A stretch of 44,491 nt of DNA from Terriglobales bacterium (lineage in GTDB: Bacteria; Acidobacteriota; Terriglobia; Terriglobales; Acidobacteriaceae), in NCBI GenBank assembly GCA_016201265.1, contig JACQDD010000154.1:1-44491 (forward strand), written 5' to 3'. The notes under the pieces were generated by a model, which searched no databases, had not been told where the DNA came from, and was given only the letters and a program-made list of their open reading frames with translations. The position numbers and the translations under genes were made by a program. Below, piece by piece: positions 1-28,090 of the stretch. The number at the start of each line of letters is the position of its first letter. Within the stretch, counting starts at the first letter, position 1.

Positions 1-103
1 CTATCTTAGGACTGACCGCGGCGACCACCGCCCGCTGTCTGCTCAATTGGCAGCCGGACTCCTGTACGTCATTCGGTCCTGATAGCGGCGGCGGTGATAA
101 AGC

Positions 104-2335: not shown

Positions 2336-2342
2336 GCTCGTT

Positions 2343-3988: not shown

Positions 3989-4001
3989 GAATCCACCTCT
4001 A

Positions 4002-7305: not shown

Positions 7306-7345
7306 GAGCACCTCCATGAGTCCGGAACGTCCAACTGGTGCAACC

Positions 7346-8284
7346 TCATTTTGCTGAGTTCGTCTCGTCGAGCGCGCTGCGCAGGGCCTTCGCCAGCCTT
7401 ACCGCGTCGTCATTCGCCCAGAAGTGCATATAGAAGAGTCTCGGCACGTCATCCAGTGCATGGCTGTGCAGGGCTACGGCTTGAATCCCGTTGTCATGCA
7501 GAACCTTCATGACGGGTCCAACCTCTTTCCCCGTCATGGCGAAATCCCCAGCTATTGCCGCCCGTCCATTTCCAGTGGGTTGGAAATTGATCACCGTGCC
7601 TGCCCCCATGGAGGGGGGTGTATCCATCCCTTCTTCGGTGAGCTTTTCGGCACGCGGCGCGCTGTAGTGCAGCACTCCGCCACTCACGTTGCCTTGCCGA
7701 CCCATGATCTTTTCCACAGCGGCGACGTCGAATCCAAGATCCGCCGCGCTTTCCTTTGCGCCGCCACCCGGCGGAAGAGGCGTCTTGGTCAGCCCCACCG
7801 CTTGCTTGATCGTCTGGGCCATCTTCACCGGGTCACCGTGTCCGCCCATGTGGATGTAGGTAATTTTCGGCGATTCGCCGATAAGGTGGTTGTGAACCGC
7901 TGTGACTTCGACTCCTCCGTCTATCAGGGCCTTCATCGCCGGAGCGACTTCGTCGTCAGTGAGGACGAGATCGCCCATAACCATCGCATCGTTGTCGCCG
8001 ACGTGGTGGAAAGCCGCCCAAGCGCCGAGTGCAAGACCTGGCTTGATTTCGGTGCCGGCGAGAGTGACATGAAGGTCTTTGCGCGGCATGTTGAACCGGA
8101 CCACGCCTTCAGGCAGATTCGCTCCTGGAAATCCAAAGACATCTTCGACCGTCTTCCATTCCCCTGCTGCTTTCTGGTCTCCAGTTGTCTGTGCCGGAGA
8201 GTTGATGGACAGGGAGACAAGAAGAATGATTGCCGCAGCAAGGGTGCACGTCCTGATCGATGACAGCTTTGTATTTTTCATCAC
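7346..8284 (-). CDS. DUF1259 family exported protein
   Basis: Two repeats 'GVVRFNMPRKDLHVTLAGTEIKPGLALGAWAAFHHVGDNDAMVMGDLVLTDDEV...VTAVHNHLIGESPKITYIHMGGHGDP'; signal peptide. Confidence 0.8.
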   Translation of the reverse strand: MMKNTKLSSIRTCTLAAAIILLVSLSINSPAQTTGDQKAAGEWKTVEDVFGFPGANLPEGVVRFNMPRKDLHVTLAGTEIKPGLALGAWAAFHHVGDNDAMVMGDLVLTDDEVAPAMKALIDGGVEVTAVHNHLIGESPKITYIHMGGHGDPVKMAQTIKQAVGLTKTPLPPGGGAKESAADLGFDVAAVEKIMGRQGNVSGGVLHYSAPRAEKLTEEGMDTPPSMGAGTVINFQPTGNGRAAIAGDFAMTGKEVGPVMKVLHDNGIQAVALHSHALDDVPRLFYMHFWANDDAVRLAKALRSALDETNSAK

Positions 8285-8317
8285 CTGTTCCTCTCATATA
8301 GTAGTTTGCCATGCCGA

Positions 8318-9136
8318 TTATTTTGCTGTGACTTTTAAGTCGTCGAAATAAGTGACGGAGTCCGCCTTTGTCCACAGTCCGACCTTGCCGGCATCCTTGA
8401 ACGTGTCATCGCTGGCCTCGATCTTCTTGACGCCATCGTAGTAGCAAGTGATCTTGTTCCCGACGGTTTCTACCCGGAGTTCATGCCAAGCACCTGGAGT
8501 GACTTTGAAGTTGGCACCTGCAAACTGTCGACGGCGCCCGTCAACGACATGGTAGAGCCGGTAATTGTCCTCAAGAGCGTTCGCACGGACGATGTAATAG
8601 TTGTTGGGATCTTTCAAACGGAAGACGAGTCCTGCTGCCTGATCGACACTTCCGGAGACCGCCTTGAACTTGACGCTTAGATCCAGATCACGAAATGACC
8701 CTTCGTCGGCTATCAGCAACGGAAAGCGATAATCGGTTTTGTCAGTTGATGTTTGGGCGACGACGTTCGGTTTTGAGGGAGCAGTAGGATCGGCCATCAC
8801 GGCCCATTTGCTCTCCTCGCCCTGACCGGTTCGGGCGCTATGGAATTTGGCAGGCGACCGCCCGGCTGAGTCAGTGTCAAAGTTGTAGGCTAGCTGTTGG
8901 CCCGCGGCTTGTTGGGGTGCCAGCTTTTCGGCTGCGGAAGCCGTCGGTGCCGCCGTACCCGATTCGTCTTCGTCGGCATCCGGCTTTTCTTCGGGCTTTT
9001 GTTGGGTCGCTGACTGGCTCGCGGACGCGGCGGAAGTGCTCGTGCGCTTCTCATCCTCGTCACTGTTATTACAGGCCAGGAGAGCTGTCAATCCTAAAAG
9101 CACGACGGCAACCAGAGAGATTTTAGGCGTGGCCAT
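8318..9136 (-). CDS. Lipoprotein with LamG/DUF1080-like (concanavalin-type) domain
   Basis: Lipobox-like 'LGLTALLACNNSD', low-complexity linker, then 'LSVKFKAVSGSVDQAAGLVFRLKDPNNYYIVRANALEDNYRLY...GAWHELRVETVGNKITCYYDGVKK'. Start MATPKISL at 9136 with AAGGAG. Confidence 0.7.
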   Translation of the reverse strand: MATPKISLVAVVLLGLTALLACNNSDEDEKRTSTSAASASQSATQQKPEEKPDADEDESGTAAPTASAAEKLAPQQAAGQQLAYNFDTDSAGRSPAKFHSARTGQGEESKWAVMADPTAPSKPNVVAQTSTDKTDYRFPLLIADEGSFRDLDLSVKFKAVSGSVDQAAGLVFRLKDPNNYYIVRANALEDNYRLYHVVDGRRRQFAGANFKVTPGAWHELRVETVGNKITCYYDGVKKIEASDDTFKDAGKVGLWTKADSVTYFDDLKVTAK

Positions 9137-9201
9137 AAGGTGCTCCTTTGCTTCCCAATTGGAGGGTGGTAGCACCTTAAACGAACGGGATTAATTGGCT
9201 C

Positions 9202-9227
9202 TGAACCCAGCATGAAATTTCGTTCAG
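9202..9227. promoter_or_regulatory. Putative OmpR-family response-regulator box (copy A)
   Basis: TGAA at 9202 and 9213 (11-bp spacing) followed by CATGAAATTTCGTTCAG; near-identical copy at 11420-11445. Confidence 0.5.
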
Positions 9228-9282
9228 GATTCGGGTGCGAAAAATTCGAGTGGCGAGCAGGGCTCTGAACATAACGCGGCTG

Positions 9283-10698
9283 TCAGTTCAGAGCTAACGG
9301 AAGTTCCACGCGGAATCGGCTGCCGCTGCCTTCTGTGCTACTGACCGTCACTTGGCCGTCATGAGCAGTGCAGATCGAGCGCACAATGGACAAGCCCAAG
9401 CCAGCTCCTCCCATCTGCCGGGAACGAGCCTTGTCGGCTCGATAGAAGCGATCAAAAATATGTGGGAGGTCACTGGCCGATATCCCCAGTCCAGTGTCCG
9501 CGATTTCGAGCACCGCTCTGCCATCCTGGGCGATGACGTGAATGCTAACCGAGCCGCCGCCGTCGGGCGTGTACTTGATCGCATTGTCTAGCAAGTTGAC
9601 TACGACCTGCTTGAGGCGCGAAGGATCACCTTCCACTTCAACCGAGGCTGTGCCATCACAATTAAGCGATATGCGCTTTTCCTCTGCGAGCAGTCGCATC
9701 TGGTCCGCCGTCGTCCGGACCAGTTCAGCCAGATCCAGACGTCCGCGCTCCACGCGTGCCTCGCCGGCGTCTAGGCGGGAAATCGCCAGCAGGCTTTCCA
9801 CGATCCTCGCCAGCCGTTGGGTCTCTTCCAAGGCGCTGCCGATTGTGTCCCGGATGTCATCCGGCACATCGCGTTCCTTCCCTGCTAATGCTTCCAGCTC
9901 TCCGTGAAGAATCGTCAATGGAGTGCGCAACTCGTGAGACGCGTCCGCAGAAAAGCGGTTGATCTGATGGAACGACTCCTCTAACCGTTCAATCATGTTG
10001 TTCAGGGCTGTTGCCAATCGTTCCAGTTCATCTCCGGTGTGTGCGACTGGCAACCGCTCACTTAGACTGCGGGAAGTGATCTGCTCAGCCTTTTGCCGAA
10101 TCTCGTCCACTGGACGCAAGGCGCGCCGCATCAGCACGTACCCACCTCCGATGGCGACCGCGACGATCAACGGCAGCCCCAGCGCGAAAGTGAACAGAAG
10201 ACCACGGAGCACTCCCTCGATCTGGTTGTAGGGGGCTCCTACCTCAATCAGAAATTGGCTACCATCGCTAGCCTTGAAGCGTAGTCCATGGAGGAGCAGT
10301 TCGTGGCCGTCGGGCATTTCAACTTCGTGGGAGAATTCTCGCCCTGATAACGATACTGTTGCGGGGACGAGGGATGGATCAAAGCTCCCGTCTCTCGGCC
10401 GTCCAGATACGAATATCTGCTTTCCGTCGGCTCTTGTGACTCGAATCAGGCGACCATTGATCTCAGGCGCGTAGTGCTCATTGATCTCGTTAACGACATA
10501 GTCCTCACCACTCTGGCCGATGGCAATGACCAGGGTCTCACCGATGGATCGTGCCTGCTTGCTGAGCGTCTCCTCCAGAGACTTCTGTAGATAACGTTCG
10601 AGTCCGAGGTAAGTGGCTGCTCCAAAGAGAAACAGCGCTCCCGCCAGCAGACCTGCGTACCAGAGTGCCATGCGGAAGCGGATGGAACGGGTGATCAC
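9283..10698 (-). CDS. Heavy-metal-type sensor histidine kinase
   Basis: HAMP, H-box 'FSADASHELRTPLTILHGELE', N-box 'NLLDNAIKYTP', G-box 'GAGLGLSIVRSI'; GTGA overlap with the response regulator. Confidence 0.9.
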   Translation of the reverse strand: MITRSIRFRMALWYAGLLAGALFLFGAATYLGLERYLQKSLEETLSKQARSIGETLVIAIGQSGEDYVVNEINEHYAPEINGRLIRVTRADGKQIFVSGRPRDGSFDPSLVPATVSLSGREFSHEVEMPDGHELLLHGLRFKASDGSQFLIEVGAPYNQIEGVLRGLLFTFALGLPLIVAVAIGGGYVLMRRALRPVDEIRQKAEQITSRSLSERLPVAHTGDELERLATALNNMIERLEESFHQINRFSADASHELRTPLTILHGELEALAGKERDVPDDIRDTIGSALEETQRLARIVESLLAISRLDAGEARVERGRLDLAELVRTTADQMRLLAEEKRISLNCDGTASVEVEGDPSRLKQVVVNLLDNAIKYTPDGGGSVSIHVIAQDGRAVLEIADTGLGISASDLPHIFDRFYRADKARSRQMGGAGLGLSIVRSICTAHDGQVTVSSTEGSGSRFRVELPLALN

Positions 10699-11378
10699 GT
10701 TTCGACCTCATCTACGCTAATGACGTATCCCAGTCCACGGATCGTGCGAATCAACTTCCGCTCGTGGGGATCATCGACCTTGCTTCTAAGGTGACGCACG
10801 TAAACGTCAACGATGTTGGTCGCCCCGTCGAAGCTCTGGTCCCAAACGTGTTCCAGGATCATGGTTCGGGAAAGCACGCGGCCCGCGTTGGCCATCAAGT
10901 ACTCAAGCACTCCGTATTCTTTTGAGGTCAATTCAACCCGTTTACCCGCCCTTTTCACCTGTTGCGATAGACGGTCCAATTCCAGGTCTCCCGTCCGCAG
11001 CACGCTCGCTCTGGTAATCGGTCCGCGCCGGAGAAGGGCCTTGACCCGAACCAGAAGTTCGGCAAACGCGAAAGGCTTCGTCAGGTAATCATCAGCACCA
11101 GCTTCGAAGTGGTCGACCTTGTCACTGACGGAATCACGGGCGGTCAGAATCAGAACTGGGACCTGAGACTTCGATTTCCGGATTCGGTTCAGAACCTCAC
11201 CGCCCGTGAGGCCAGGAAGCATTAAGTCAAGAATAATGAGATCGTACTGATAGGTCTGGGCGAGTTCCCAGCCAGTCTTGCCGTCCCGCGCCACGTCGAC
11301 CGCAAAACGCTCCGCAGTCAGGCCTTTTACGACGAATCGGGAGACCTTGTCTTCGTCCTCGACCACGAGAATACGCAT
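10695..11378 (-). CDS. OmpR/PhoB-family response regulator
   Basis: 'MRILVVEDEDKVSRFVVKGL...DLIILDLMLPGLTGGEVL...LTKPFAFAELLVRVKALLRR' plus winged-helix C-terminus 'LTSKEYGVLEYLMANAGRVLSRTMILEHVWD'. Confidence 0.93.
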   Translation of the reverse strand: MRILVVEDEDKVSRFVVKGLTAERFAVDVARDGKTGWELAQTYQYDLIILDLMLPGLTGGEVLNRIRKSKSQVPVLILTARDSVSDKVDHFEAGADDYLTKPFAFAELLVRVKALLRRGPITRASVLRTGDLELDRLSQQVKRAGKRVELTSKEYGVLEYLMANAGRVLSRTMILEHVWDQSFDGATNIVDVYVRHLRSKVDDPHERKLIRTIRGLGYVISVDEVET

Positions 11379-11419
11379 TTCCCAGCCTGCCAAAGTAGAA
11401 GCTGAAAATTAAGTCCGCA

Positions 11420-11445
11420 TGAATGCTACATGAAATTCCGTTCAG
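11420..11445. promoter_or_regulatory. Putative OmpR-family response-regulator box (copy B)
   Basis: TGAA at 11420 and 11431 (11-bp spacing) then CATGAAATTCCGTTCAG, between the divergent TCS and efflux transcription units; matches copy A at 9202-9227. Confidence 0.5.
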
Positions 11446-11501
11446 TTAATGAGCAGGTCGATTTGACGGACAGCCTGGAAATAGTAGAACATTGTGAAAC
11501 C

Positions 11502-11894
11502 GTGACTCGTCTTGTGGGGATAGTCGCATTGCTCTCTGTGCTGCCGTCATTTGTGACGGCACCGCTAACCCACGAGCATGCGAATAACGGCGGGCCGCGT
11601 GCGGAGAGTTTCGTCCATGCTCACTTCTCTTCACATCTGAAATCTAGTGATAGCAGGAGCGAGATCGGCCATGGAGAAAAAGGAGAGATCAGATACCTTG
11701 ATCTTTTCCAGGCGCAACCAGTTTCTGCGAGTGTCCCCCACTTTGTCGTGACCTCAGCATTCCGCATCTCAAGCGAATCTTCGAGCCACGGTTTTGTAGT
11801 TCTCGTCGAGCCGAATGCGCTCGCTCCGCCTCTAGTTCTCTCACTTCCAGCTCGATCCCCGCCTGCGCATCTACTTCTCCCGCATTTAGTGTGA
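11502..11894 (+). CDS. Small exported His-containing protein at head of efflux operon
   Basis: In-frame GTG at 11502 gives 'VTRLVGIVALLSVLPSFVTAPLTHEHANN...' signal-peptide-like start and C-terminal 'LSLPARSPPAHLL'. The ORF-track ATG (11430) lies inside the putative regulator box. Confidence 0.55.
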   Translation: MTRLVGIVALLSVLPSFVTAPLTHEHANNGGPRAESFVHAHFSSHLKSSDSRSEIGHGEKGEIRYLDLFQAQPVSASVPHFVVTSAFRISSESSSHGFVVLVEPNALAPPLVLSLPARSPPAHLLLPHLV

Positions 11895-11987
11895 CCGCTG
11901 GGGTGGCGGTTTCTTCCCCTTACATTTTGTGTCGTATCCACTGGGCCGAAGCTGCGTTCGCCAAAAGGCGAGTGTGACCAGTCCAGC

Positions 11988-13232
11988 ATGCGCGTGGAGA
12001 CTTCTTACACCGTGATGATGATCCGCAAATTTGCTATAGCAGCGATGATCTTGTTGCCGAGTCTTTGTGCTGGCCAGATACCGCTTGGTCTCGACCAAGC
12101 GATAGCAATCGCGTTGTCGCAACGGCCGGAACTCAAGGCGGCCGCGGCGCGCATCGAATCCGCGGAGCAACTACGAAGGCAATCGGGGTTGTTCCCCAAC
12201 CCCCGTTTCATATTTCAGTCAGAGAACATCCGAGCTTCCGATTTCAACTATGGACAGGATGCGGACACGTTTGCCTACGCCTCACAGGTAATCGAGACCT
12301 CTGGTCGGCGGAAGAATCGTATTGCGGTTGCCCAAGGGGCGGCGAATCGCAGTGAGCTTGAGGCCCAGTTGGGTCGGCGCGATATTGCGGAGATGGTCCG
12401 CGACGTCTACTGGAGTGCTCTTGCGGCTGAGGTAACGCGATCTCTTTACGACGAGAACCTGCAATTCTTTGATCAGATTCTTCAGTATCACGAAGCGCGT
12501 TTAAAGGAAGGCAAGGTGGCGGAAGTTGATGTGCTTCGTGTGCGTTTGGAGAGTGGCCGGCTGCGCGCTGCGGCTGACAATGCTCGCCTGGACGCCGAAC
12601 GGGCCCAGTTGGAGTTAGCTCGTGAACTGGGCACGCCCAGCGGGGGGCCGTGGAAACTGACCGAGGATATTGGACAACTCGAAACACCACGGACTGCTCA
12701 GAAATCGAGTATTGGGGAGCCGCGACCGGAGGGACGTTTGGCGGAACTGGCGGTTGCCCAAGCTCACAGTGTCCTTGGGCTGGAACGAGCGAACGGCCGG
12801 CCGGACCTGGACGCACTATTCGGGTACAAGCGGACAGGCGGACTCAATACGGCGATTGCGGGGCTGCAATTCAATATTCCGATCTTTAACCGAAATCAAG
12901 GTGCGAGGGCGGCCGCTGCTGCCAACGTCCGCGCTGCAGAACAAGATCTTGCCGCTACGCATGCCGTGCTGGAAACGGACCTGAGCCTCGCCCGCAAACA
13001 GTATGGCGCCAGGCGCGAACAGGTAGAAAGCATTTTCCGGCCATTGAGGGACCAGGCGGTTGAGATTTCGGATATCAGCAGGGCCGCCTATCGTGAAGGT
13101 GGGCTGGACTTGCTGCGCCTCCTGGATGCCGAGCGGCTACGCGTGGATGCCCAAATCTCATTAGTACGCGCTCTCAATGAGTTTCACCGCAGTGTGACAG
13201 CTCTGGAGCGAGCAGAAGGAGTACAGCCTTGA
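11988..13232 (+). CDS. TolC-family outer-membrane factor (CzcC/CusC-like)
   Basis: 'LGLDQAIAIALSQRPELKAAAARIESAEQLRRQSGLFPNPRF' outer-membrane efflux repeat; followed by an ATGA overlap with the adaptor. Confidence 0.87.
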   Translation: MRVETSYTVMMIRKFAIAAMILLPSLCAGQIPLGLDQAIAIALSQRPELKAAAARIESAEQLRRQSGLFPNPRFIFQSENIRASDFNYGQDADTFAYASQVIETSGRRKNRIAVAQGAANRSELEAQLGRRDIAEMVRDVYWSALAAEVTRSLYDENLQFFDQILQYHEARLKEGKVAEVDVLRVRLESGRLRAAADNARLDAERAQLELARELGTPSGGPWKLTEDIGQLETPRTAQKSSIGEPRPEGRLAELAVAQAHSVLGLERANGRPDLDALFGYKRTGGLNTAIAGLQFNIPIFNRNQGARAAAAANVRAAEQDLAATHAVLETDLSLARKQYGARREQVESIFRPLRDQAVEISDISRAAYREGGLDLLRLLDAERLRVDAQISLVRALNEFHRSVTALERAEGVQP

Positions 13233-14437
13233 TGCACCGTTTAGGGACGATCTTCGTGCTGATGTGCATTCTGTGGTTAACCGCTTGTGATCGGGCCAAT
13301 CAGACTGCCGCGGCCTCGCAGGAAAAGGCCGCGCAGCATAAGAGCGATGAAGTCTCGCTGCCGGTTTCGGAGCAGACCGGAAGCACCTTTCAAGTGGAAA
13401 CCTTGGCGGCGAGCAATGAGCCAGAGTTGCTGCGAGTTCCTGGCAGGATCACCCTCGCCGACAACGGTAGCTGGCGCGTAGGTGTCCTTACCAGTGGCCG
13501 GGTGGAACAGGTGTACGTGAATTCTGGAGACTTCGTTGACAAAGGCCAGGTTCTGGCCGGGATGCACAGCCACGATGTACATGAGGCTCGCGCGGCGTAT
13601 CAAACATCTAGGTCCGATCTGTCTCGCGCTGAGGCCGCCGCTGCTCTTGCTCAGAAAAACTACGACCGTACGCAGCGGCTGTACTCGCTGAAGGCGGCGT
13701 CCCTCGAAGAGGTGGAACGTGCTCGGCAAGAACTGGTGAACGCGCAGGCCGCCGTTCGCGACGAGCAGATCGACGTCGAGAAGGAGCGCGTTCACCTTAA
13801 GGACACTCTTGGGATTCCTCCCGATCCAGGTGTGGAATATCGCGGTAACGATGCCGATTTGATCCCTATCCGCGCTCCAGGCGCGGGATACGTTCTGGCA
13901 AAAAATGTCTCAGCAGGAACCGTGGTTGACCCGACCAAGGATGTATTTGTCATCGGTGATTTGAAACGTCTTTGGATGATCGCATCCGTCAACGAAACCA
14001 ACATAGCGCGCCTGCGCGCCGGGCAGCGTGCCAATGTGAATGTCAACGCATTCGCCAACGAACATTTCACGGGAAAGGTAACCAACCTCGGGCAGGAACT
14101 CGACCCGGTGACGCGTGTTATGCGAGTGAGAATCGAGCTTGAGAATCCGTCCATCAAGCTGCGCCCCGAGATGCTGGCGACGGCGGAAATCGCGGTGGGT
14201 GGCTCCAGGCCTCTGTTGCTTCTGCCCAGTGAAGCAGTGCAACAAATCAATGGCCAGGACGTAGTTTTCGTGCGCAAGTCCGCGGATCGTTTTGAGATGC
14301 GACCGGTTCGTACAGGTGAGACAGTCGGCGGTCGGCTTGCAATCCTTGAAGGTGTCAAAGCGGGCGATGCTGTGGTGATACGAGGTAGTTTCCTGCTGAA
14401 GTCGCAACTCTTGAAATCCTCGATGGAAAGCGAGTAG
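13229..14437 (+). CDS. RND periplasmic adaptor (CzcB-like membrane-fusion protein)
   Basis: Lipoprotein-like N-terminus 'LWLTACDRAN', 'GRVEQVYVNSGDFVDKGQVLAGMHSHDV' barrel/lipoyl motif and coiled-coil hairpin. Confidence 0.88.
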   Translation: MMHRLGTIFVLMCILWLTACDRANQTAAASQEKAAQHKSDEVSLPVSEQTGSTFQVETLAASNEPELLRVPGRITLADNGSWRVGVLTSGRVEQVYVNSGDFVDKGQVLAGMHSHDVHEARAAYQTSRSDLSRAEAAAALAQKNYDRTQRLYSLKAASLEEVERARQELVNAQAAVRDEQIDVEKERVHLKDTLGIPPDPGVEYRGNDADLIPIRAPGAGYVLAKNVSAGTVVDPTKDVFVIGDLKRLWMIASVNETNIARLRAGQRANVNVNAFANEHFTGKVTNLGQELDPVTRVMRVRIELENPSIKLRPEMLATAEIAVGGSRPLLLLPSEAVQQINGQDVVFVRKSADRFEMRPVRTGETVGGRLAILEGVKAGDAVVIRGSFLLKSQLLKSSMESE

Positions 14438-14445
14438 ACGTCGCG

Positions 14446-17571
<3,126 letters not shown>

Positions 17572-17626
17572 TTGCAGCACCTGACCCGTGTCTTGGCCAC
17601 CAATCTGGGTCACAAGGAAACAGCGT

Positions 17627-18640
17627 TCAGTGCGAGTGGGGCGCCAGGCCATCGTGGCCGTGCTCAGCTATCTGATGATAGCTTTCCCCCGCCTTATCAG
17701 AGGGGTCCACGTGAACCACTGCAAGCGAAAGGTATCGGAGGTGATGGAGCAATTCATGGTTCACCTGGGCAGCGATAGCATGGCCCTCTGCCACAGATAA
17801 GTGAGGAGTAACGGCAATGTTCACCTGTGCATGAAGCCGGTGTCCCAACCACCTGGCGCGTACTTCGTTGACGCCGACAACGCCGGGAACATGGCTGACA
17901 GCATGTCGAATCTCATCGATCACGTCCGGCTCGACTCCGTCCAGTGCACGAGTGAACACATCCTTGCCCGATTGCCAGACGATGCCCAGGATGGCGACCG
18001 TGATTAACAGACCAACAATCGGATCGGCTAGTGGATATCCGAAGTAAACACCTAAAGCTCCGAAGAGCACGGCCAGGCTGGTCCAGCCGTCAACGCGCGC
18101 GTGGTACCCATCGGCCACCAGCGCGGCGCTGCCAATCTCCTTGCCGACCTTGATACGGAATAAAGCGACACCTTCGTTGCCGAGAAAACCAATGATCGAC
18201 GCCACCATGACTGCGCCTAAATGACCGATGGCTACCGGGTGAAACAGCCGGTCGATAGACTCATAGGCCGCGACGACTGCACTGAACAAAATCATCGCCA
18301 CGACGGTCATTCCGGCCAGGTCCTCTACCCGGCCATAGCCGAACGAAAAACGTTTGCTGGCTTTCTTGCGGGCGAAAAGGAAAGCAATGCCCAGCGGGAC
18401 TGCGGTAGCTGCATCGCCAAAGTTGTGGATGGTATCGGCAAGCAGAGCGACACTGTGCGAGAGAACGACAATGACGATCTGGAACAGGGCAGTTACCAGC
18501 AATCCCACAAAGGACCACTTCACAGCCCAGAGGCCGCGGGCCGAGGTCGTGATGGAAGGATCGATGCGACCATGCAGATGAGAATGGGGATGGTCTCCAT
18601 GCCCGCCATGTTCATGGTCGCCGTGGGGGTGGTCGCTCAT
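17627..18640 (-). CDS. Cation diffusion facilitator family transporter (CzcD-like)
   Basis: His-rich N-terminus 'DHPHGDHEHGGHGDHPHSHLHG', 'SHSVALLADTIHNFGDA' and 'DGYHARVDGWTSLAVLFG' motifs; His-containing C-terminal tail. Confidence 0.9.
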   Translation of the reverse strand: MSDHPHGDHEHGGHGDHPHSHLHGRIDPSITTSARGLWAVKWSFVGLLVTALFQIVIVVLSHSVALLADTIHNFGDAATAVPLGIAFLFARKKASKRFSFGYGRVEDLAGMTVVAMILFSAVVAAYESIDRLFHPVAIGHLGAVMVASIIGFLGNEGVALFRIKVGKEIGSAALVADGYHARVDGWTSLAVLFGALGVYFGYPLADPIVGLLITVAILGIVWQSGKDVFTRALDGVEPDVIDEIRHAVSHVPGVVGVNEVRARWLGHRLHAQVNIAVTPHLSVAEGHAIAAQVNHELLHHLRYLSLAVVHVDPSDKAGESYHQIAEHGHDGLAPHSH

Positions 18641-18678
18641 CGGGCCCTAGCTCGCAGGTGGCTCCTCATTATCTCCCA

Positions 18679-19716
18679 TCACCGCGCAGCGAGAGCGGGC
18701 CTTTCCACGAGAACAAACCATGTGTTGTTGAACACGCCTTCATCGACAACCTTGAAACCCGCGCGCTGAGCCATGGTCCGCCATTCTCTTCTTGGTGTGA
18801 GAAAGAACGAAAATACGTTCCCGACCGCGAACATCGGCCAGCTTGGAACCCAGACACCCATCAAGAAACGTCCTCCGGGTTTGAGAGTACGGAAGATCTC
18901 GCGGAGTCCCTGCTCCTTCTGATGTCCGAGGTGATCGTAAACGTGCGTACTCACCGCGCTGTCGAAGGTCTGATCCTCGAAAGGCAGGGCGGTCAGGTCT
19001 GCTTTCTCGATCGTGACGCGCTCGTTGAGATTGGCGAGTCGCAGGTTCTGTTTCAGCAGATCAAGGCCGCCATCCTCTATGTATGTCGCGTCGAAGCGGT
19101 CCACGGCGACCACACGGCCGTTTTTCAGGATCCGGCTCAAAGCGATCGTGGTGCGACCCGCGCCGCTACCAGCATCCAGCACCAAGTCATGATCGCTTCG
19201 CAGCAGGTCCACCATGGGAAGAACAACGTAATCACGCCAGCGGAATGAGGACATGATGAGGTTCCCCACAACGAAGCCTTCGCCCAACAGAAGGGCCAAG
19301 AAAGACAAGGGCCACAGGTTCGGCTTTGTGACCTGCAGCACGATCGCCGCGGAAACAGCTATGGCGCTGACAACCGCGAGTCCATTCATCCACCCTGGCC
19401 CCCACCCGAACCTGTACTCGTTGCTGGCAGCGGCAGCATGACCTGTGATCCGATGTAGGCGCTGGACCAATCTCACCGGAGCGAGGACGTAAGCCGACGC
19501 CAGCAATACGAGTCCGCCGAGAACGTGAAATCCGCCAAAGAGGAAGATAGAACTGGATACTGGTTTCAGCCCCGGCACATACAGTAGAAGAACCGACCCA
19601 ACAGCAATGCCGCCAAGGCCTACAATCCACATGTGACGATGTGCGTTGCTGTGTTTTCGATGGCTAGCGGTTGGTTTCCCTTCCAGAGTGCTCATTGCCA
19701 GTTTGTAGTTTTCCAT
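18679..19716 (-). CDS. Membrane-anchored class I SAM-dependent methyltransferase
   Basis: Four hydrophobic N-terminal segments followed by 'LVLDAGSGAGRTTIALSRILKNGRVVAVDRFD' and 'FDSAVSTHVYDHLG...LKPGGRFLMGVW'. Confidence 0.78.
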   Translation of the reverse strand: MENYKLAMSTLEGKPTASHRKHSNAHRHMWIVGLGGIAVGSVLLLYVPGLKPVSSSIFLFGGFHVLGGLVLLASAYVLAPVRLVQRLHRITGHAAAASNEYRFGWGPGWMNGLAVVSAIAVSAAIVLQVTKPNLWPLSFLALLLGEGFVVGNLIMSSFRWRDYVVLPMVDLLRSDHDLVLDAGSGAGRTTIALSRILKNGRVVAVDRFDATYIEDGGLDLLKQNLRLANLNERVTIEKADLTALPFEDQTFDSAVSTHVYDHLGHQKEQGLREIFRTLKPGGRFLMGVWVPSWPMFAVGNVFSFFLTPRREWRTMAQRAGFKVVDEGVFNNTWFVLVERPALAAR

Positions 19717-19855
19717 TCGGATGCTCCTCTCGGTTCCGATCTGTTTCAGGACACTGTGTACAGAAACGATCTACTCGTCCATAATGAGGAAGCGTACGAG
19801 TTCGGTCAATGAACACTGATCCAAAACTGTTGTTTTCAAGACACACCAGGGCAGA

Positions 19856-20473
19856 TTGTTCAGAATTGAGGAACAGCGAGTGAAAACAAGAACCGAGGAC
19901 CGTCGAGTTGCGCGCACCCGCCAACTTCTGCGGGACGCCCTGGTATCCCTGATTATTCAGAAGGGGTACGAGTCTGTCACAGTGAAGGATGTAACCGACC
20001 TGGCGAACGTAGGACGTTCCACGTTTTACGCGCACTTTGTGGACAAAGAGCAGTTGCTTCTGAGCGGCCTCGATCGGCTTCAAGAGGTCATGAGTCAGCG
20101 GCAGGAGGCTGCCCTGACGAAACAGGCGAGTCCGCTCGCGCGTGGTTTAGCATTCAGCCTTCCCTTGTTTCAGCACGTCTATCAACAAAGGAACGTTTGC
20201 AGGGCGATCTTCGGGCGACAAGGTGGAGCCGCAGTTCAGCATAGAGTCCGCCGTCTCCTTGTGAAGCTGGTTCGAGAGGATCTAAAAGGGCTGGGTCTGA
20301 CGGAGATGCGCCGGACTCTGCCTTCCGAGGCAGTAGTTCACTTTGCGGTAGGTTCTCTGCTGGCAATCTTGAGCTGGTGGGCAGAAGGACGATCCGGTCT
20401 GTCGCCAGAGGACGCCGACAATCTCTTTCGTGAACTCACAATGCCAGGCGTCGTTGCAGTCCTGGGCTCCTGA
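19856..20473 (+). CDS. TetR/AcrR-family transcriptional regulator
   Basis: 'RRVARTRQLLRDALVSLIIQKGYESVTVKDVTDLANVGRSTFYAHFVDKEQLLLSGL' TetR HTH. A GTG slightly downstream (VKTRTEDR) may be the true start. Confidence 0.87.
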   Translation: MFRIEEQRVKTRTEDRRVARTRQLLRDALVSLIIQKGYESVTVKDVTDLANVGRSTFYAHFVDKEQLLLSGLDRLQEVMSQRQEAALTKQASPLARGLAFSLPLFQHVYQQRNVCRAIFGRQGGAAVQHRVRRLLVKLVREDLKGLGLTEMRRTLPSEAVVHFAVGSLLAILSWWAEGRSGLSPEDADNLFRELTMPGVVAVLGS

Positions 20474-20518
20474 AAAAGGGAGAGCCGGCGCCCTTTCGAT
20501 AGCCGCAAGGCTTCGCAC

Positions 20519-20653
20519 ATGGCTCATGCCACTTCAGTCCGAACTGGGCGAGTGATCCTCGCAGTGGGGATTGTGCTGCTGATACTGACCTTGTTGATGT
20601 ATGGTTCAGACTTGCTTCGCTGGATCGTAGATCACCAGAACTGGTTGGACTAG
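20519..20653 (+). CDS. Putative 44-aa single-pass membrane protein
   Basis: ATG...TAG reads MAHATSVRTGRVILAVGIVLLILTLLMYGSDLLRWIVDHQNWLD; below the ORF-track length cut-off. Confidence 0.4.
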   Translation: MAHATSVRTGRVILAVGIVLLILTLLMYGSDLLRWIVDHQNWLD

Positions 20654-20880
20654 GCCACTGGGGTTTTGCTCGGCCATTTTGCCGCGGAAAAGGACCGACA
20701 TGCGAAACCGTGTGGCGAGCACCTCCACTGTGTCCATTTTGTGTCCTACCGCATTAAATCGCATTCGATTTCCCAAGCTTTTTCAACGTTGTCGAGAAGC
20801 CATCTGTGCGGGCGTCAATTCTTCTATATTATTGTTAGAGCTGCGTTTACATACGTTTCGCAGCCACTTGCATGAGCTAA

Positions 20881-20925
20881 CTCTTAATCAGTAGGTTGTA
20901 GGTTCGATTCCTACCGCGCTCACCA
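20881..20925 (+). tRNA. Partial 3' half of tRNA-Lys(CUU) (remnant, not a functional gene)
   Basis: Anticodon loop CTCTTAA (20881-20887), T-arm GTAGG-TTCGATT-CCTAC (20898-20914), acceptor 3' strand CGCGCTC + A + CCA (20915-20925); no matching 5' half upstream. Confidence 0.75.
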
Positions 20926-21032
20926 CTCCTGATCCTCCGAGTTCTTCCTATCGTTCTCGTAGAGCGCATTCAGACAAGAAGGCCGGGGCAGCCCGCTGCT
21001 CCGGCCAGGCGAATCAAGCGATCATGCGCGGT

Positions 21033-21571: not shown

Positions 21572-22309
21572 GTGCGGGAGAACAAAAGATCAGGTCTGGC
21601 GCGGGCGCTTTCCAAGATGGGCTACTGCTCACGATCGCAGGCGGCCGTTCTCATTCGGGCCGGGCGTGTCACCCTGAACGGAAGGGCAGTGCGGGATCCG
21701 GAAACTCCAGTACGAATCGGTCCGGACCGAATCGGTGTGGATGGTTCGGCGATCGCGGAGCAGACGAAAATCTATCTCGTGATGAACAAACCGCGGGGCG
21801 TAGTGACGACCGCTTCCGATGAAAAAGGGCGCGAGACAGTCTACGGCCTGCTCCCCGGTGGAGAGTGGGTCGGTCCCGTGGGGCGACTGGACAAGGCGAG
21901 CGAAGGGCTGCTGCTGTTGACCAATGATTCCCAGTGGGCAGCGAAGATTACGGATCCGGCCAGCCATCTCGACAAGCGCTATCACGTGCAGGTGAACTGC
22001 ATCGCCGGCGACCATCTGTTGGAGCAGCTTGGGCGAGGCGTCACACTTGGAAGCGAAGATCTGCACGTCAAAGCGGTGCGCGTCCTGCGGCTCGGGCTCA
22101 AGAACAGTTGGCTGGAAATTACCCTGGACGAGGGAAAGAACCGGCAGATCCGCCGCCTGCTGGAAGTGTCTGGCGTGCAGGTCTTGCGGTTGGTGCGTGT
22201 GTCGGTCGGGACGCTCGAACTAGGCGATCTGAAGAAGGGCGGTGTGCGACGGCTGACAGAACGAGAGAAATCTTCGCTGGACCGGGCTCTGGGTCGTGAG
22301 ACGAAATAG
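21572..22309 (+). CDS. RsuA/RluB-family 16S/23S rRNA pseudouridine synthase
   Basis: S4 domain 'RALSKMGYCSRSQAAVLIRAGRVTLNGR', 'MNKPRGVVTTASDEKGR', catalytic 'PVGRLDKASEGLLLLTND', 'EGKNRQIRRLLEVSG'. Confidence 0.92.
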   Translation: MRENKRSGLARALSKMGYCSRSQAAVLIRAGRVTLNGRAVRDPETPVRIGPDRIGVDGSAIAEQTKIYLVMNKPRGVVTTASDEKGRETVYGLLPGGEWVGPVGRLDKASEGLLLLTNDSQWAAKITDPASHLDKRYHVQVNCIAGDHLLEQLGRGVTLGSEDLHVKAVRVLRLGLKNSWLEITLDEGKNRQIRRLLEVSGVQVLRLVRVSVGTLELGDLKKGGVRRLTEREKSSLDRALGRETK

Positions 22310-22326
22310 TCGCCCAAAAAGACAAC

Positions 22327-22374
22327 GGGCGCGTGCCGATAGATGTGGGGTGAGGATGGCAACGGCACGCGCCC
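22327..22374. other. 12-bp perfect stem / 24-nt loop inverted repeat
   Basis: GGGCGCGTGCCG (22327-22338) and CGGCACGCGCCC (22363-22374) are exact reverse complements; no T-tract follows. Confidence 0.6.
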
Positions 22375-22508
22375 TATCGAGTTGAATTCAGGCTAGCTTT
22401 GCGGTCGGGAAATGTCAATGTAAATCTCTTGTATTCATATGTTTACAGACGGCTCTAAGATCACCATTCAGTCTTTTCCGCAAGTGCATACGTCACAGCT
22501 TCGTGTGA

Positions 22509-23033
22509 TTACGCGTCGGGGGTAGTTTTTCGCCATTGGGCGGTCTCCGGAAGAAGACCGCGGGTCGCAAGGTAGTCCTGCGCCTGGCGAAGCACCTTGC
22601 GCTCGTCGCTGTATGCCAGCTGCCGCGAAGCCTCGGCAAGCGGAACCCAGAGCGCGCGCGTTACTTCGATTCGCATTTCAGGAGTGACGTCATCGATCTC
22701 TCCCGAGCCATAGCGCAGCAAATAGAAACTCACGATTTTGAAGACGCGTTCGCCATCGCCCCAGGTGCGGACATACACGTACTTGATGTCCGCGAGTTTC
22801 GTAATCAACTCGGCGACGATGCCAGTTTCCTCCTGCACCTCGCGGACGGCCGCGGCCTGAGCCGTTTCGCCCGGATCGAGCAGCCCTTTCGGAAGAGCCA
22901 GCACGGCCTGAGTGCGCTTGCGGGGCGCTTTCGCAGTTGCGGGGCTTTCCTTCTGCGGCTCGATCAGAGCGACGTGCCACACGCCAGAGATTTCCCGCAG
23001 CACCACACCGCCCGCTGAGATCTCTCGCACCAT
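22509..23033 (-). CDS. NUDIX hydrolase
   Basis: Nudix box 'GLLDPGETAQAAAVREVQEETGIVAEL'. Confidence 0.92.
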   Translation of the reverse strand: MVREISAGGVVLREISGVWHVALIEPQKESPATAKAPRKRTQAVLALPKGLLDPGETAQAAAVREVQEETGIVAELITKLADIKYVYVRTWGDGERVFKIVSFYLLRYGSGEIDDVTPEMRIEVTRALWVPLAEASRQLAYSDERKVLRQAQDYLATRGLLPETAQWRKTTPDA

Positions 23034-23048
23034 ATTCGCCTCAAAATA

Positions 23049-24491
23049 TCAGGATTGCCCAAGCTGTGCAGTCGCCTGCTGAATCCGCTGCCATGCGCGT
23101 TCCACGTGGCGGGCCTCAGTATGCGTCTGTCCCACGCAGAGTCGCAGCGTCATTTTGCCGTCGAGCCGGGTGTGCGTGAGATACAGGTCTCCGCTGTGGT
23201 TAAGTTGGTCCATCAGCTTCTGATTCTCCGCATCTCCAGAGCGCAAGCGGAAGCAGACCAGGTTGAGGGGCACGGGAGCAGCCAGTTCGAATCGCGCATC
23301 CTCTCGCACCCATGCGGCAAACTGCTGCGCCAGGCGCACGTGCTCGCGAACGTGCCGCTGCAAGCCCTCGATCCCGTAATAGCGGATCACGAACCACAGC
23401 TTCAGTGAGCGGAATCGGCGTCCCAATGGGACTTGCCAGTCGCGGTAGTCGATCACCGCGCCCGATTCGGTTGCCTGGTTCCGCAGATACTCAGGCAGCA
23501 CCGAGAGAGTGCGAATCAGGTGCTTGCGGTCGGCGACGTAGAAGCAGTCGCAGTCGAAGTTCGTGAGCATCCACTTGTGCGGATTGAAGCAGTAGCTGTC
23601 GGCGAATTCCATGCCGTCATGCAGGAAGCGGAACTCCGGGCAGAGGGCGGCCGTCCCACTCATCGCAGAATCCACGTGCAGCCAGAGATTGTGCTCCCGG
23701 CAGATCCCGCCGATTTCGCGGACGGGATCGATGGCGTTGGAAGAGGTTGTGCCCACAGTGGCGCAGACGAAGCAGGGAACCAGGCCCGCTTTCTCGTCAG
23801 CCTCGACCTGACGGGCGAGGGTATCAGGGCGCATGGCGAAGTTCTGATCCACTTCGATTGCGCGCAGATTGTCGGAGCCCAGGCCAGCGATCTTCACTGC
23901 CTTCTCGACCGAGGAGTGGGTCTGGGTGGAGATATACGCAATGAGCCGGCCGTCGCATCCCTTTCGATTGCTGGCGAACTGCGTTGCGCGCTCACGGGCC
24001 GCAAGCAGAGCGCAGAGAGAGGCGCTGGAAGCCGCGTCCTGGATCACGCCGCCCCCGCTGCTCGAGGAGAGCAATTTGTCCGGCAGTCCTAGCATGGGGA
24101 CGAGCCAGTCGAGAACGTGCGTCTCAAGTTCGGTACAGGCCGGGCTGGTGGACCAGAGCATGCCCTGCACTCCGAGTCCAGTCGAGAGCAGGTCACCCAG
24201 TATGGCCGGTCCCGACGTGCTGGTGGGAAAGTAAGCGAAAAAATTCGGCGACTGCCAGTGAGTGATGCCAGGCAGAATGATGCGCTCGACATCGGCGAAT
24301 ATCCGGTCGAACGATTCGCCTTGCTGCGGTGGGTGCTGCGGCAGCTGCGCACGAATTTCTCCCGGCTGCACGCGGGAAAGAACCGGGAAGCTTTCAACGC
24401 GGGAACAGTAGTCCGCAATCCAGTCCACGACCGCGTGGCCCTGGCGGCGAAATTCCTCGGGAGACATGTGGAAAGACTCTGGGTCAGGCAT
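23049..24491 (-). CDS. PLP-dependent group II decarboxylase (aromatic-L-amino-acid decarboxylase-like)
   Basis: 'FFAYFPTSTSGPAILGDLLSTGLGVQGMLWSTSPACTELE', PLP-lysine motif 'DSYCFNPHKWMLTNFDCDCFYVAD'. Confidence 0.93.
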   Translation of the reverse strand: MPDPESFHMSPEEFRRQGHAVVDWIADYCSRVESFPVLSRVQPGEIRAQLPQHPPQQGESFDRIFADVERIILPGITHWQSPNFFAYFPTSTSGPAILGDLLSTGLGVQGMLWSTSPACTELETHVLDWLVPMLGLPDKLLSSSSGGGVIQDAASSASLCALLAARERATQFASNRKGCDGRLIAYISTQTHSSVEKAVKIAGLGSDNLRAIEVDQNFAMRPDTLARQVEADEKAGLVPCFVCATVGTTSSNAIDPVREIGGICREHNLWLHVDSAMSGTAALCPEFRFLHDGMEFADSYCFNPHKWMLTNFDCDCFYVADRKHLIRTLSVLPEYLRNQATESGAVIDYRDWQVPLGRRFRSLKLWFVIRYYGIEGLQRHVREHVRLAQQFAAWVREDARFELAAPVPLNLVCFRLRSGDAENQKLMDQLNHSGDLYLTHTRLDGKMTLRLCVGQTHTEARHVERAWQRIQQATAQLGQS

Positions 24492-24496
24492 AAGCG

Positions 24497-24592
24497 TAAT
24501 TGTTGATTGCTGATTTCTGATTGTTGATTCAAAACACTCGGAGGTATCTTCGGCTTTTCAATCAACAATCAACCATCAAGAATCAACAATTG
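24497..24592. repeat. TTGATTG-rich imperfect inverted repeat
   Basis: taattgttgattgctgatttctgattgttgattca versus the reverse complement of tcaatcaacaatcaaccatcaagaatcaacaattgt. Confidence 0.6.
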
Positions 24593-24603
24593 TCACCCCC
24601 ACA

Positions 24604-25362
24604 CTACAGCTTCCCGTAGTACACCCGCGTGTTGTACTCGAACTCGACCACGCCCTGCTGGGCGTGCGTGCGAAAGATGCGCTGCAGATCCTGCATCATG
24701 GGCTGGTGGTTGGGGTGGCCTGCGAGCGGGGCGTACGATGACGACAGCAAGCGCCCGGCCGCGCCTTCGTAGTCGAACTGCTGCCGAAGATCGAAGACAC
24801 GCTCCCGGCACGGCGCGGGTGCAAAGAATTCGTGAATCGTGGCCGTCGTTCTTTCGTGGCGCACCTCTTTATAGTCGGTGCTGTAGGTCAACAGGAGCTG
24901 CTCATAATCGCGCAAGAAAGGAGTGATCACGGTCCGGCGCTCGTTCCAGATCAGGACGCACCATCCGCCCGGCCTCAGGATGCGGGCAAACTCCGCGCGC
25001 GCGCGGGCACGGTCGAACCAGTGCGCCGCCTGGGCAGCCGTAACGAAGTCCGCGCACCCAGAGGGCAGGGTAGTTTCCTCGGCAGTGCCAGCCACGGAAG
25101 TCAGCTGCGCGAAAGACTGGAGCAGGCGGCTGCCCGTCTCGCGCATCTCCGCATTCGGTTCGACCGCAAACACCCGGTTCCCGTTTTCCAGGAGAAGCCG
25201 TGTAAACGCTCCGGTGCCCGAGGCGATGTCCGCGATGACATGCGCGGGTTGCAGCCCGCACTCCGCGCGCAGAAGTTCGAGAACCTCGGGCGGATACCCC
25301 GGGCGATAGCGGACATAATCCTCCACCCGATCGGAAAATCGCGCGGTTGGCGCCTGGCTCAT
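24604..25362 (-). CDS. Class I SAM-dependent methyltransferase
   Basis: 'VIADIASGTGAFTRLLLENGNRVFAVEPNAEMRE', 'LRPGGWCVLIWNER'. Confidence 0.88.
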   Translation of the reverse strand: MSQAPTARFSDRVEDYVRYRPGYPPEVLELLRAECGLQPAHVIADIASGTGAFTRLLLENGNRVFAVEPNAEMRETGSRLLQSFAQLTSVAGTAEETTLPSGCADFVTAAQAAHWFDRARARAEFARILRPGGWCVLIWNERRTVITPFLRDYEQLLLTYSTDYKEVRHERTTATIHEFFAPAPCRERVFDLRQQFDYEGAAGRLLSSSYAPLAGHPNHQPMMQDLQRIFRTHAQQGVVEFEYNTRVYYGKL

Positions 25363-25421
25363 GACTTTTCAGTGTAACGCGGCGGCGGCGTAATCCTCCC
25401 GCACGGTACAATCTTCATTTC

Positions 25422-25934
25422 ATGGCAAAAGAGCGGGCGCGGGAAGTTCTCGAAAGCGGACCGGTGAGCGTGGGCGATGCCGCGCCCGACTTCGAGTTAC
25501 CGGCGCTGATCGGAGGCGTCCGAAAAAGTTTTCGCCTGAGTGAATACCGTGGGAAGAATGTAGTGCTCGCGTTCTATCCGTTCAACTGGCTGGAGTCGAG
25601 CGCACGCCAGATGGGCGCCTATCAGGCGCAACGCGCGCGCGTGCTGGCGAGCAACGCGGAGACAGTCGCGATCAACGTCGAATCCATCATGAATACGACG
25701 GCTTGGGAGCGGGAAAACGGGCCTTTCGATTTTCCGATGTGCAGCGACTTTTGGCCCCATGGCGAAGTGTGTGCGCGCTACGGGGTTCTGCCAGAGTCCG
25801 GTCCGCACGCAGGCGTCAGCGTGCGCGCGATCTTCGTTGTCGATCGCGGCGGCCGAGTCGTATTCCGCAAGATCTACAAGTGGGATGAAGTTCCACCCCT
25901 GGACGAAATCTTTCCACTGCTGGAGAAGACCTGA
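25422..25934 (+). CDS. Peroxiredoxin / AhpC-TSA-type redoxin domain protein
   Basis: 'VGDAAPDFELPALIGGVRKSFRLSEYRGKNVVLAFYPFNWL' thioredoxin-fold motif; the usual peroxidatic Cys position reads NWLESS. Confidence 0.82.
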   Translation: MAKERAREVLESGPVSVGDAAPDFELPALIGGVRKSFRLSEYRGKNVVLAFYPFNWLESSARQMGAYQAQRARVLASNAETVAINVESIMNTTAWERENGPFDFPMCSDFWPHGEVCARYGVLPESGPHAGVSVRAIFVVDRGGRVVFRKIYKWDEVPPLDEIFPLLEKT

Positions 25935-25963
25935 ATTAGACGCGGTCGTTTTACAGGAGCCAC

Positions 25964-28066
25964 ATGAAACTTGTTTCGGGTGCAATCCTCTTACTGGTGC
26001 TGCTCGGTTCGAACCTGCGGGCATTTGACCATCTGGGTGGAAGCGGCAGTCCTCCAGAAGGCGCGAGCATTACCGGGTTTCGTGACGCGTCCGGAGAGCA
26101 GGAAGTCGAAAAGCGTTTCCTGGCGGCACCCGATCCGAAACTGGCCGAGGAGCATCTGCGCATCCTGACTCAGTCTCCGCACATTGCCGGGTCACCCGAG
26201 GACAAAGCCACCGCGGAATACGTGGCGAAAAAATTCCGCGAAGCTGGACTCGAAACCGAGATCGTCGAATACAAGGTCTGGCTCAACTATCCCTCCCAGG
26301 TCAGCGTGGACCTGACCGCGCCCGACGGCGTCGTGATGCACGGCCCGCGCCCCGAGCATGTGGACGGCGATCCCTTCCAGGACGATCCACGTGTGGCCGT
26401 CACGTACAACGGCATGTCGCCTTCGGGCGATGCGGAGGCGGAAGTTGTTTACGCAAACTACGGCTCGCCCGAGGACTTCGACAAGCTGAAGCAGTTGAAC
26501 ATCGATGTGCGCGGCAAGATCGTCATCGTTCGTTACGGCCAGAATTTCCGCGGCGTGAAGGCATTTGTCGCCCAAGAACGGGGAGCAGCCGGCGTCATTA
26601 TTTATTCCGATCCCAAAGACGACGGCTACTATCGCGGCGACGCCTATCCCAAGGGTCCGTGGCGTCCGGCGAGCGGAACGCAACGGGGATCGGTCGGATA
26701 CATGTTCCAGTTCGCCGAGTCGGCGCAGCTTTCGAAGATTCCCGTCACCCCGCTCTCCTACGCCGATGCCTCGCCGATTCTGGAGCACCTGAGCGGACCG
26801 GCCTCGCCGCGAGAGTGGCAGGGAGCGCTGCCGTTTACTTATCACGTTGGTCCGGGGCCGGCGAAAGTAAAGACTCACCTGAAGCAGGACTACCAGTTCC
26901 GCACCATCTGGGACGTGATTGGCAAAGTGCAGGGAACGTCGTCGCCGGCCGAGTGGGTGGTGGCTGGGAATCACCGTGATGCGTGGGTGTATGGAGCCGT
27001 CGATCCCAACAGCGGCACTGCCGCCATGCTCGAGTCGGTGCACGGCATCGGCGAACTGCTGAAATCAGGATGGAAGCCGAAGCGAACCATCGTGATCGGG
27101 AGCTGGGATGCCGAAGAACAAGGACTAATCGGGTCGACGGAATGGGGCGAGGACCATGCCCAAGAACTGGCGAATGCTGCCGCCTACTTCAACATGGACG
27201 TAGCAGTCTCGGGTCCGAAATTCGGGGCGTCGAGCGTGCCCAGTCTGAAGCAGTTTATCCGCGAGATCACGAAGGCGGTTCCGTCTCCACAGGGCGGATC
27301 GGTGTATGAAACGTGGAAGAAGACAAGTCAGCCGAGTCAGGAAAACTCTCGCTCCCAGGAGTCTCTTACCGGCACCTACCGGCCGCCCGCGGCCCAGGTG
27401 CGCAGCGATACGCCAGTCGGCGATCTTGGCAGCGGTTCCGACTACACCGTGTTTCTGCAGCACCTGGGAGTGCCTTCCACCGACGTGGGTTCCACCGGAG
27501 ACTACGGCGTCTATCACTCGGTGTTCGACAACTTTGCCTGGTTCAAGAAATTCGGCGATCCCGACTTCCGCTACGAGCAGCAGATGGCCCGGGTTTACGG
27601 TCTGGAGATCGTGCGCATGGCCGGCGCCGACGTGCTTCCGTATGACTACGAGGACTACGGGAAGGAAATTCTGGTGTATCTGGATGCCGCCAAGAACAAG
27701 GCCAAAGAGCGCTTCGGAGATAAAGCTCCAGATTTTTCCGCGGCCGTGGAGGGTGCGCGTCACCTGGAGCAGGCGGGCGCGAAGATGCTGCAGAAGCAAC
27801 GCAAACTCCCCGCCGATCCGGAGCGCATGAACGCGACCCTGCGAGACACGGAGCGGGCGCTGCTGATTCCCGAGGGACTGCCCAACCGCCCGTGGTATCA
27901 CCACGCGATTTATGCGCCCGGTCAGTACACCGGCTACGCGGCAGTGGTGATTCCGGGAGTGAACGAAGCGATTGATGGCGGCGATGAGCGGCGGACCGAA
28001 CAGCAAATTTCCGTGCTGGCGGCAGCGTTGCATCGCGCCGCCATGGCGCTGGAACAGTATCGGTAG
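25964..28066 (+). CDS. M28 family peptidase (glutamate carboxypeptidase II-like)
   Basis: PA-domain 'GKIVIVRYGQNFRGVKAFVAQERGAAGVIIYSDPKDDG', catalytic 'GNHRDAWVYGAVDPNSGTAAMLE', 'SWDAEEQGLIGSTEW'. Confidence 0.92.
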   Translation: MKLVSGAILLLVLLGSNLRAFDHLGGSGSPPEGASITGFRDASGEQEVEKRFLAAPDPKLAEEHLRILTQSPHIAGSPEDKATAEYVAKKFREAGLETEIVEYKVWLNYPSQVSVDLTAPDGVVMHGPRPEHVDGDPFQDDPRVAVTYNGMSPSGDAEAEVVYANYGSPEDFDKLKQLNIDVRGKIVIVRYGQNFRGVKAFVAQERGAAGVIIYSDPKDDGYYRGDAYPKGPWRPASGTQRGSVGYMFQFAESAQLSKIPVTPLSYADASPILEHLSGPASPREWQGALPFTYHVGPGPAKVKTHLKQDYQFRTIWDVIGKVQGTSSPAEWVVAGNHRDAWVYGAVDPNSGTAAMLESVHGIGELLKSGWKPKRTIVIGSWDAEEQGLIGSTEWGEDHAQELANAAAYFNMDVAVSGPKFGASSVPSLKQFIREITKAVPSPQGGSVYETWKKTSQPSQENSRSQESLTGTYRPPAAQVRSDTPVGDLGSGSDYTVFLQHLGVPSTDVGSTGDYGVYHSVFDNFAWFKKFGDPDFRYEQQMARVYGLEIVRMAGADVLPYDYEDYGKEILVYLDAAKNKAKERFGDKAPDFSAAVEGARHLEQAGAKMLQKQRKLPADPERMNATLRDTERALLIPEGLPNRPWYHHAIYAPGQYTGYAAVVIPGVNEAIDGGDERRTEQQISVLAAALHRAAMALEQYR

Positions 28067-28090
28067 CTGGGAGCTGGCTTGAGCCTTGCA

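Follow-up and report, generated by a model that had tools for sequence, protein, structure and literature searches.

A displaced tRNA-Lys(CUU) 3' fragment as the probable right end of a metal-efflux island at an integration hotspot in Acidobacteriaceae

The window analysed here is a whole contig of 44,491 nucleotides (C233) from a MAG of 2.93 Mb, 300 contigs and 76% completeness. It carries a 46-base remnant of tRNA-Lys(CUU) that we interpret, with a probability of about 93%, as the attR core of an island inserted in that tRNA gene by a tyrosine integrase crossing over at the anticodon loop. DNA from the adjoining arm leftward to at least the contig start would then be the element, with metal-efflux cargo. 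Observed directly were the identity of the core, a break point common to relatives, a conserved arm, two backbones kept on either side of variable DNA and, in one relative, an entire island. Coordinates of the features are collected in Table 1.

Table 1. Features of the window and of the probable island
Feature	Position	Strand	Evidence or remark
Right-hand part of probable island, left end outside assembly	1..20879	.	lower GC/GC3; no match at relatives' tRNA-Lys hotspot
MFS transporter and ChrB C-terminal-domain protein (chromate-type pair), cargo	2343..4015	-	
ABC transporter (ATPase, permease, SBP_bac_6/8-type solute-binding protein), cargo	4002..7317	-	
Two-component system (histidine kinase, OmpR-type regulator), divergent from efflux operon, cargo	9283..11393	-	
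CusCBA/CzcCBA-type heavy-metal RND efflux operon (outer membrane factor, membrane fusion protein, CusA/CzcA pump), cargo	11988..17571	+	Pfam, TIGR00914
CDF cation efflux transporter, cargo	17627..18640	-	
Methyltransferase	18679-19716	-	near end before arm
TetR regulator	19856-20473	+	final gene preceding arm
Attachment-site element arm (probable)	20727..20879	+	~74% conserved in other islands of family, different cargo attached
TGTGTCC direct repeats, two copies, 11 bp apart	20729-20735, 20740-20746 (20729..20746)	+	arm alignments
Probable attR core: displaced tRNA-Lys(CUU) 3' part, base 31/anticodon loop to CCA	20880..20925	+	46-nt identity to relatives
B'-side chromosomal backbone: RsuA-type pseudouridine synthase (21572), NUDIX, PLP decarboxylase, methyltransferase, peroxiredoxin-like, M28 peptidase	21572..28066	.	
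Phd/YefM-type antitoxin and PIN-domain toxin pair, right flank	28079-28806	+	

A tRNA-Lys fragment cut at the anticodon loop

Positions 20881-20925 read CTCTTAATCAGTAGGTTGTAGGTTCGATTCCTACCGCGCTCACCA, which reproduces without a mismatch the stretch of tRNA-Lys(CUU) between the anticodon loop and the CCA end, both included; an exact search located it once in the assembly. The intact gene of same-genus relatives, called by ARAGORN as tRNA-Lys(ctt), consists of GGGCGCGTAGCTCAATTGGCAGAGCAACTGA followed directly by CTCTTAATCAGTAGGTTGTAGGTTCGATTCCTACCGCGCTCACCA. The A at 20880 matches as well, giving 46 identical nucleotides out of 46 (20880-20925), and identity to the relatives' intact gene ends there. 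A match of this length to the same-genus tRNA-Lys(CTT) excludes chance.

An earlier note, made from the sequence of the window, had described a tRNA-Lys(CUU) 3' half that starts at the anticodon loop and lacks its 5' half. The match to the relatives' gene bears out the first part; the second agrees with the best match in the window to the 31-nt 5' half, which has 12 mismatches. The same note called the residual anticodon stem broken. That is right insofar as the stem, GCTAA/TCAGT, departs from the native ACTGA and has an A.C mismatch, but the damage is milder than claimed, being that one mismatch plus one G.U pair. The covariance-model check that it proposed for an intact tRNA at this position came out in its favour: the Rfam tRNA model scored the fragment at 17.2 bits, short of its gathering score of 29, no Rfam family reached its gathering score anywhere in the window, and ARAGORN called no tRNA there. 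We regard the 45-nt observation as confirmed and real. Positions 20881-20925 should accordingly not be annotated as a tRNA gene; confusion of insertion-derived tRNA fragments with genes is documented (PMC9897764).

A break point common to unrelated islands

Copies of tRNA-Lys truncated at the 5' side numbered ten in nine genomes, namely that of the window and eight same-genus relatives (G003, G007, G008, G009, G011, G016, G017 and G023; the G017 copy borders an assembly gap). All ten start at the identical base, after an A, and the sequences to their left belong to at least five unrelated arm types. A single break base amid unrelated surroundings points to site-specific crossover, since decay or random duplication would not cut in this way. 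The break point at the anticodon loop is thus common to independent islands, and the displaced fragment in the window is identical to the 3' part of the tRNA of the host genus.

Some genomes with truncated copies, G023 (L068, L069), G075 (L174), G007 (L073) and G017 (L010), showed no intact tRNA-Lys(CTT) within 3 mismatches, G023 and G075 despite completeness of 95-96%. The assemblies may be broken at the hotspot, or the gene may have been lost.

One relative retains a complete island on a single contig. On G008 contig C4 a tyrosine integrase lies ~110 bp beyond the intact tRNA-Lys at 51362; after it come a DDE transposase, a PIN-domain protein and a restriction-modification protein, and 12 kb on stands a footprint with the orientation of the intact gene. 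On G016 contig C25, 18 kb separate the intact tRNA-Lys from the footprint and an integrase adjoins the intact gene. Integrases were likewise found ~50-135 bp behind intact copies in G002, G003, G005, G009, G018, G022 and G024, and at the same spacing past the intact gene in G196 and G198. In G011 it is the footprint that is followed by an integrase, the arrangement that tandem islands would produce. The nearest phage integrases shared <30% identity. The gene next to the integrase of G198 encodes a small HTH_17 protein, which its position and family suggest to be excisionase-like.

By the mechanism that we propose, a tyrosine integrase would insert the element into tRNA-Lys(CUU) by crossing over in the anticodon loop. 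At the left end (attL) the gene would be made whole by the tRNA 3' part that the element brought with it; the host's own 3' part would be displaced to the right end, where it would now form 20880-20925. Element DNA would run from the arm (20727-20879) leftward to at least the contig start, and host backbone would begin with RsuA (21572).

The T stem of the intact tRNA-Lys within one genus (L059-L078) read either GTAGG/CCTAC or GAAGG/CCTTC, a paired change that falls in the part of the tRNA that an incoming element would supply. These variants may record past integrations.

A conserved arm with exchanged cargo

The bases immediately left of the core, 20727-20879, are ~74% identical to those preceding the footprints in G003 and G011. 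A family-wide search with the arm only, the core excluded, also matched G075, a member of another genus, where the arm is again followed by a tRNA-Lys footprint; that contig too begins inside its island. Scanning GTDB r220 for the arm repeat together with the start of the core returned nine contigs, all titled as MAGs of Acidobacteriaceae, Acidobacteria or Terriglobia, and the arm was not found in viral contigs. Besides the window, six genomes (G003, G011, G022, G075, G196 and G198) have the arm with the full tRNA tail. The element sides of the arm-bearing loci have no proteins in common, so these elements share the same end and carry different cargo. The proposal in the earlier note that the fragment is an attachment-site footprint is upheld by this recurrence of the arm before footprints with different cargo, by the relatives' same break point and by the complete G008 island.

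The two TGTGTCC repeats lie ~130 bp from the core and are conserved where the arms align, the first copy differing by one base at most. If other tyrosine integrases are a guide, the repeats may be arm-binding sites of the integrase. Between them and the core, at 20840-20864, lies a small inverted repeat (GCTGCG/CGCAGC); the G003 and G011 arms have a hairpin in the same position made of other bases (GGCTAC/GTAGCC in G003).

The arm may also go with one type of integrase. Among genomes with the arm and footprint, four (G003, G022, G196 and G198) have a readable integrase of the G003 group after the intact gene, at 73-100% identity to that of G003; genomes with other footprint arms (G008, G009 and G016) have clearly different integrases. 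In the few related genomes compared, this pattern suggests that the element in the window used a G003-type integrase.

In four further arms (L176, L179, L182 and L184), just ACTCTTAATCAG(T) precedes unrelated sequence and the tRNA tail is missing; the tails of L176 and L184 look partly tRNA-like. Such arms could reflect secondary insertion, deletion or the decay of a footprint. The loci compared offered no comparator from which to read empty sites for these four.

An occupied hotspot between two conserved backbones

DNA 5' of the intact tRNA-Lys aligns over many kb across most of the genus; DNA 3' of it differs in nearly every genome, with agreement only in pairs such as G005/G009. The right backbone, from RsuA, NUDIX and the decarboxylase onward, was found in 22 of 23 relatives. 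Its homology to the right flank of the window stops at 21.55-21.59 kb, and the sequence preceding RsuA is unrelated between genomes save for the arm and short patches. Conserved backbones thus stand on both sides of variable DNA, the right one seen in the window and the left one in relatives. Three genomes tie these parts together. G003, from a separate sample, has arm, footprint and right backbone in the window's order. G029, of another genus, has the left backbone, tRNA-Lys, 19 kb and RsuA on a single contig. In G016 both backbones are joined through tRNA-Lys on one contig, with ~70 kb between. In G002 (C28, L076) and G006 (C83, L078/L125), these backbones flank an intact tRNA-Lys of reversed orientation, an arrangement that inversion of the segment would produce.

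None of 23 same-genus and several family genomes showed an exact empty site, with an intact tRNA-Lys joined directly to 20926-21559; in every readable one the tRNA-Lys site was occupied or rearranged. Such a site is a usual proof of an island and no strict requirement. The loci compared contain no counterpart of the 634 bp in question (20926-21559), a stretch that another element could have left behind. Within it, between the footprint and RsuA, a small reading frame on the minus strand (21034-21355) is apparently frameshifted. Its downstream part, ...INVVKKEVLPILKKQAGFLEILPF..., is open and had no Pfam match; the frame may be either a pseudogene or the product of a base-calling error.

Cargo and left end of the island

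DNA left of the core differs in composition from the right flank, with a GC content of 57.2% against 60.5% and a gene GC3 of 0.65 against 0.73 (p = 0.0003). GC3 of the genes is even across 1-20.7 kb. The RND pump of the efflux operon scored 1164 bits against TIGR00914, for which the cut-off is 701. An orthologue of this operon, at ~81% nucleotide identity, occurs on contig C10 of G016, away from the tRNA-Lys site, and G016 and G010 carry further parts of the window's cargo elsewhere. The G016 operon (L119/L120) lies ~1.8 kb from a tRNA-Asp(GTC) gene, on its 5' side. Among the genes and sequence inspected in 1-20.7 kb we found no integrase, transposase or second footprint, and no relaxase or type IV secretion gene was annotated in this visible part of the island.

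The earlier note had taken the region to the left, described as all metal genes, for the inserted island. An island is supported by the arm, the break point and the conserved right backbone, with nothing shared on the left. 'All metal' is too strong, however: besides the ABC transporter, methyltransferase and TetR regulator of Table 1, the 20.7 kb encode a DUF5916 protein, a DUF1259 protein and a sugar-hydrolase-like protein. Syntenic metal genes in relatives that lack the footprint, which the note had named as evidence against itself, did not turn up: none of the window's cargo was present at the relatives' tRNA-Lys site in the loci compared.

The contig starts at base 1 within the probable island. 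In the 76%-complete MAG we found no intact tRNA-Lys(CTT), only tRNA-Lys(TTT) being among the calls. Nor did it yield the left backbone in a search with a 587-aa marker protein (a 1169-aa query from the left backbone matched a large paralogous family, was uninformative and was replaced by this marker), and its only matches to the G003-type integrase were distant relatives at 25-29% identity. Given the completeness of the MAG, these three gaps are an absence of data. We infer the left end to be an intact tRNA-Lys with a G003-type integrase; the earlier note had predicted an intact tRNA-Lys and an integrase to the left of the window. This fits the relatives: in G008 and G016 an intact tRNA in the same direction stands at the opposite end of the island.

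Alternative explanations

Three readings would deny the footprint itself. The fragment might be an old pseudogene of tRNA-Lys that arose by ordinary duplication or decay with no integrase involved, in keeping with an assembly that holds only a fragment and a window that holds no integrase. The fragment is undecayed over all 46 positions, however, and this reading would not explain why copies in eight relatives break at that very base next to at least five unrelated arms, or why integrases sit ~50-135 bp behind the intact copies. The common break point in practice refutes this reading, which we consider very improbable. A metagenome misassembly at a repeated tRNA-Lys segment is conceivable in a MAG of 300 contigs, where a 46-nt repeat can mislead assembly, yet the same order of arm, footprint and RsuA in G003 from another sample, and the arm preceding the core in six other genomes, make an artefact slightly less credible still. 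The least credible of the three, with hardly any weight, is that the fragment is the 3' exon of a split tRNA, either an intron-bearing gene with an upstream 5' half or a permuted one. It has in its favour the position of the break, since the anticodon loop is where group I introns of bacteria are located. We rejected it because the 5' half is absent from the window, where no candidate has fewer than 12 mismatches in 31; moreover, neither a group I intron nor any other Rfam family reached the gathering threshold, and the intact genes of relatives are contiguous.

A different question is whether the metal genes came with the footprint. They could have arrived separately, through tandem or nested elements or by homologous exchange at the hotspot. 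Tandem islands do occur in relatives (G011 and L177 have a footprint followed by another integrase), the metal operon stands alone at another site in G016 (C10) with other modules elsewhere in G016 and G010, and only the last 150 bp are common with the sister islands. Against this, no second footprint, integrase or transposase was seen between 1 and 20.7 kb, and gene GC3 is even over the stretch. We consider separate arrival unlikely, though a serious contender, and favour the reading that the metal genes and the footprint probably belong to one element.

Relation to known islands

The window locus belongs to the well-documented tRNA islands of the anticodon-loop type. The Islander database lists 3919 islands, of which 3760 have a 3' fragment and 2083 an anticodon-centred site, and the Islander paper gives three crossover sublocations in tRNA genes (PMC4383910). 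Islands of its anticodon-loop (A) class share with the window locus a displaced 3' tRNA fragment at one end and a crossover in the anticodon loop; they share with the relatives of the window a regenerated tRNA next to an integrase at the other end, and tandem arrays. The window differs from the class in that its assembly makes one end visible and in having a host group and an arm sequence of its own. The PAPI-1 and pKLC102-type islands of Pseudomonas aeruginosa, which are large, cargo-bearing and attached at the 3' end of a tRNA-Lys gene, resemble the window by description in that attachment site and in carrying cargo. They differ from it in that no conjugation genes were seen in the visible part of the window's island, whose crossover lies at the anticodon loop with a 46-bp core. 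PYG1 of Pyrococcus yayanosii is a ~21-kb island at tRNA-Gln, bounded by a complete and a partial tRNA gene with 44-bp direct repeats (PMC9897764); in these respects it is similar to the island proposed for the window, and it differs in being archaeal and in using another tRNA. In a narrow literature search we did not meet the hotspot and conserved arm of this genus.

It is possible, and we offer it tentatively, that the arm defines an undescribed group of Acidobacteriaceae islands, characterised by a ~150-bp arm with paired TGTGTCC and a G003-type integrase. Such a group would swap its cargo wholesale while keeping its end, would cross over at the base that several unrelated integrase lineages also use in a single tRNA-Lys(CUU) hotspot, and would also insert at non-tRNA sites, keeping only ACTCTTAATCAG(T).

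The right border of a probable metal-efflux island is hereby fixed to the base. Arm and core together form a probe for related islands in incomplete MAGs, which commonly lack the integrase end. The comparison across relatives shows that tRNA-Lys(CUU), with the rsuA-led backbone beyond it, is a busy integration hotspot in this genus of uncultured soil Acidobacteria.
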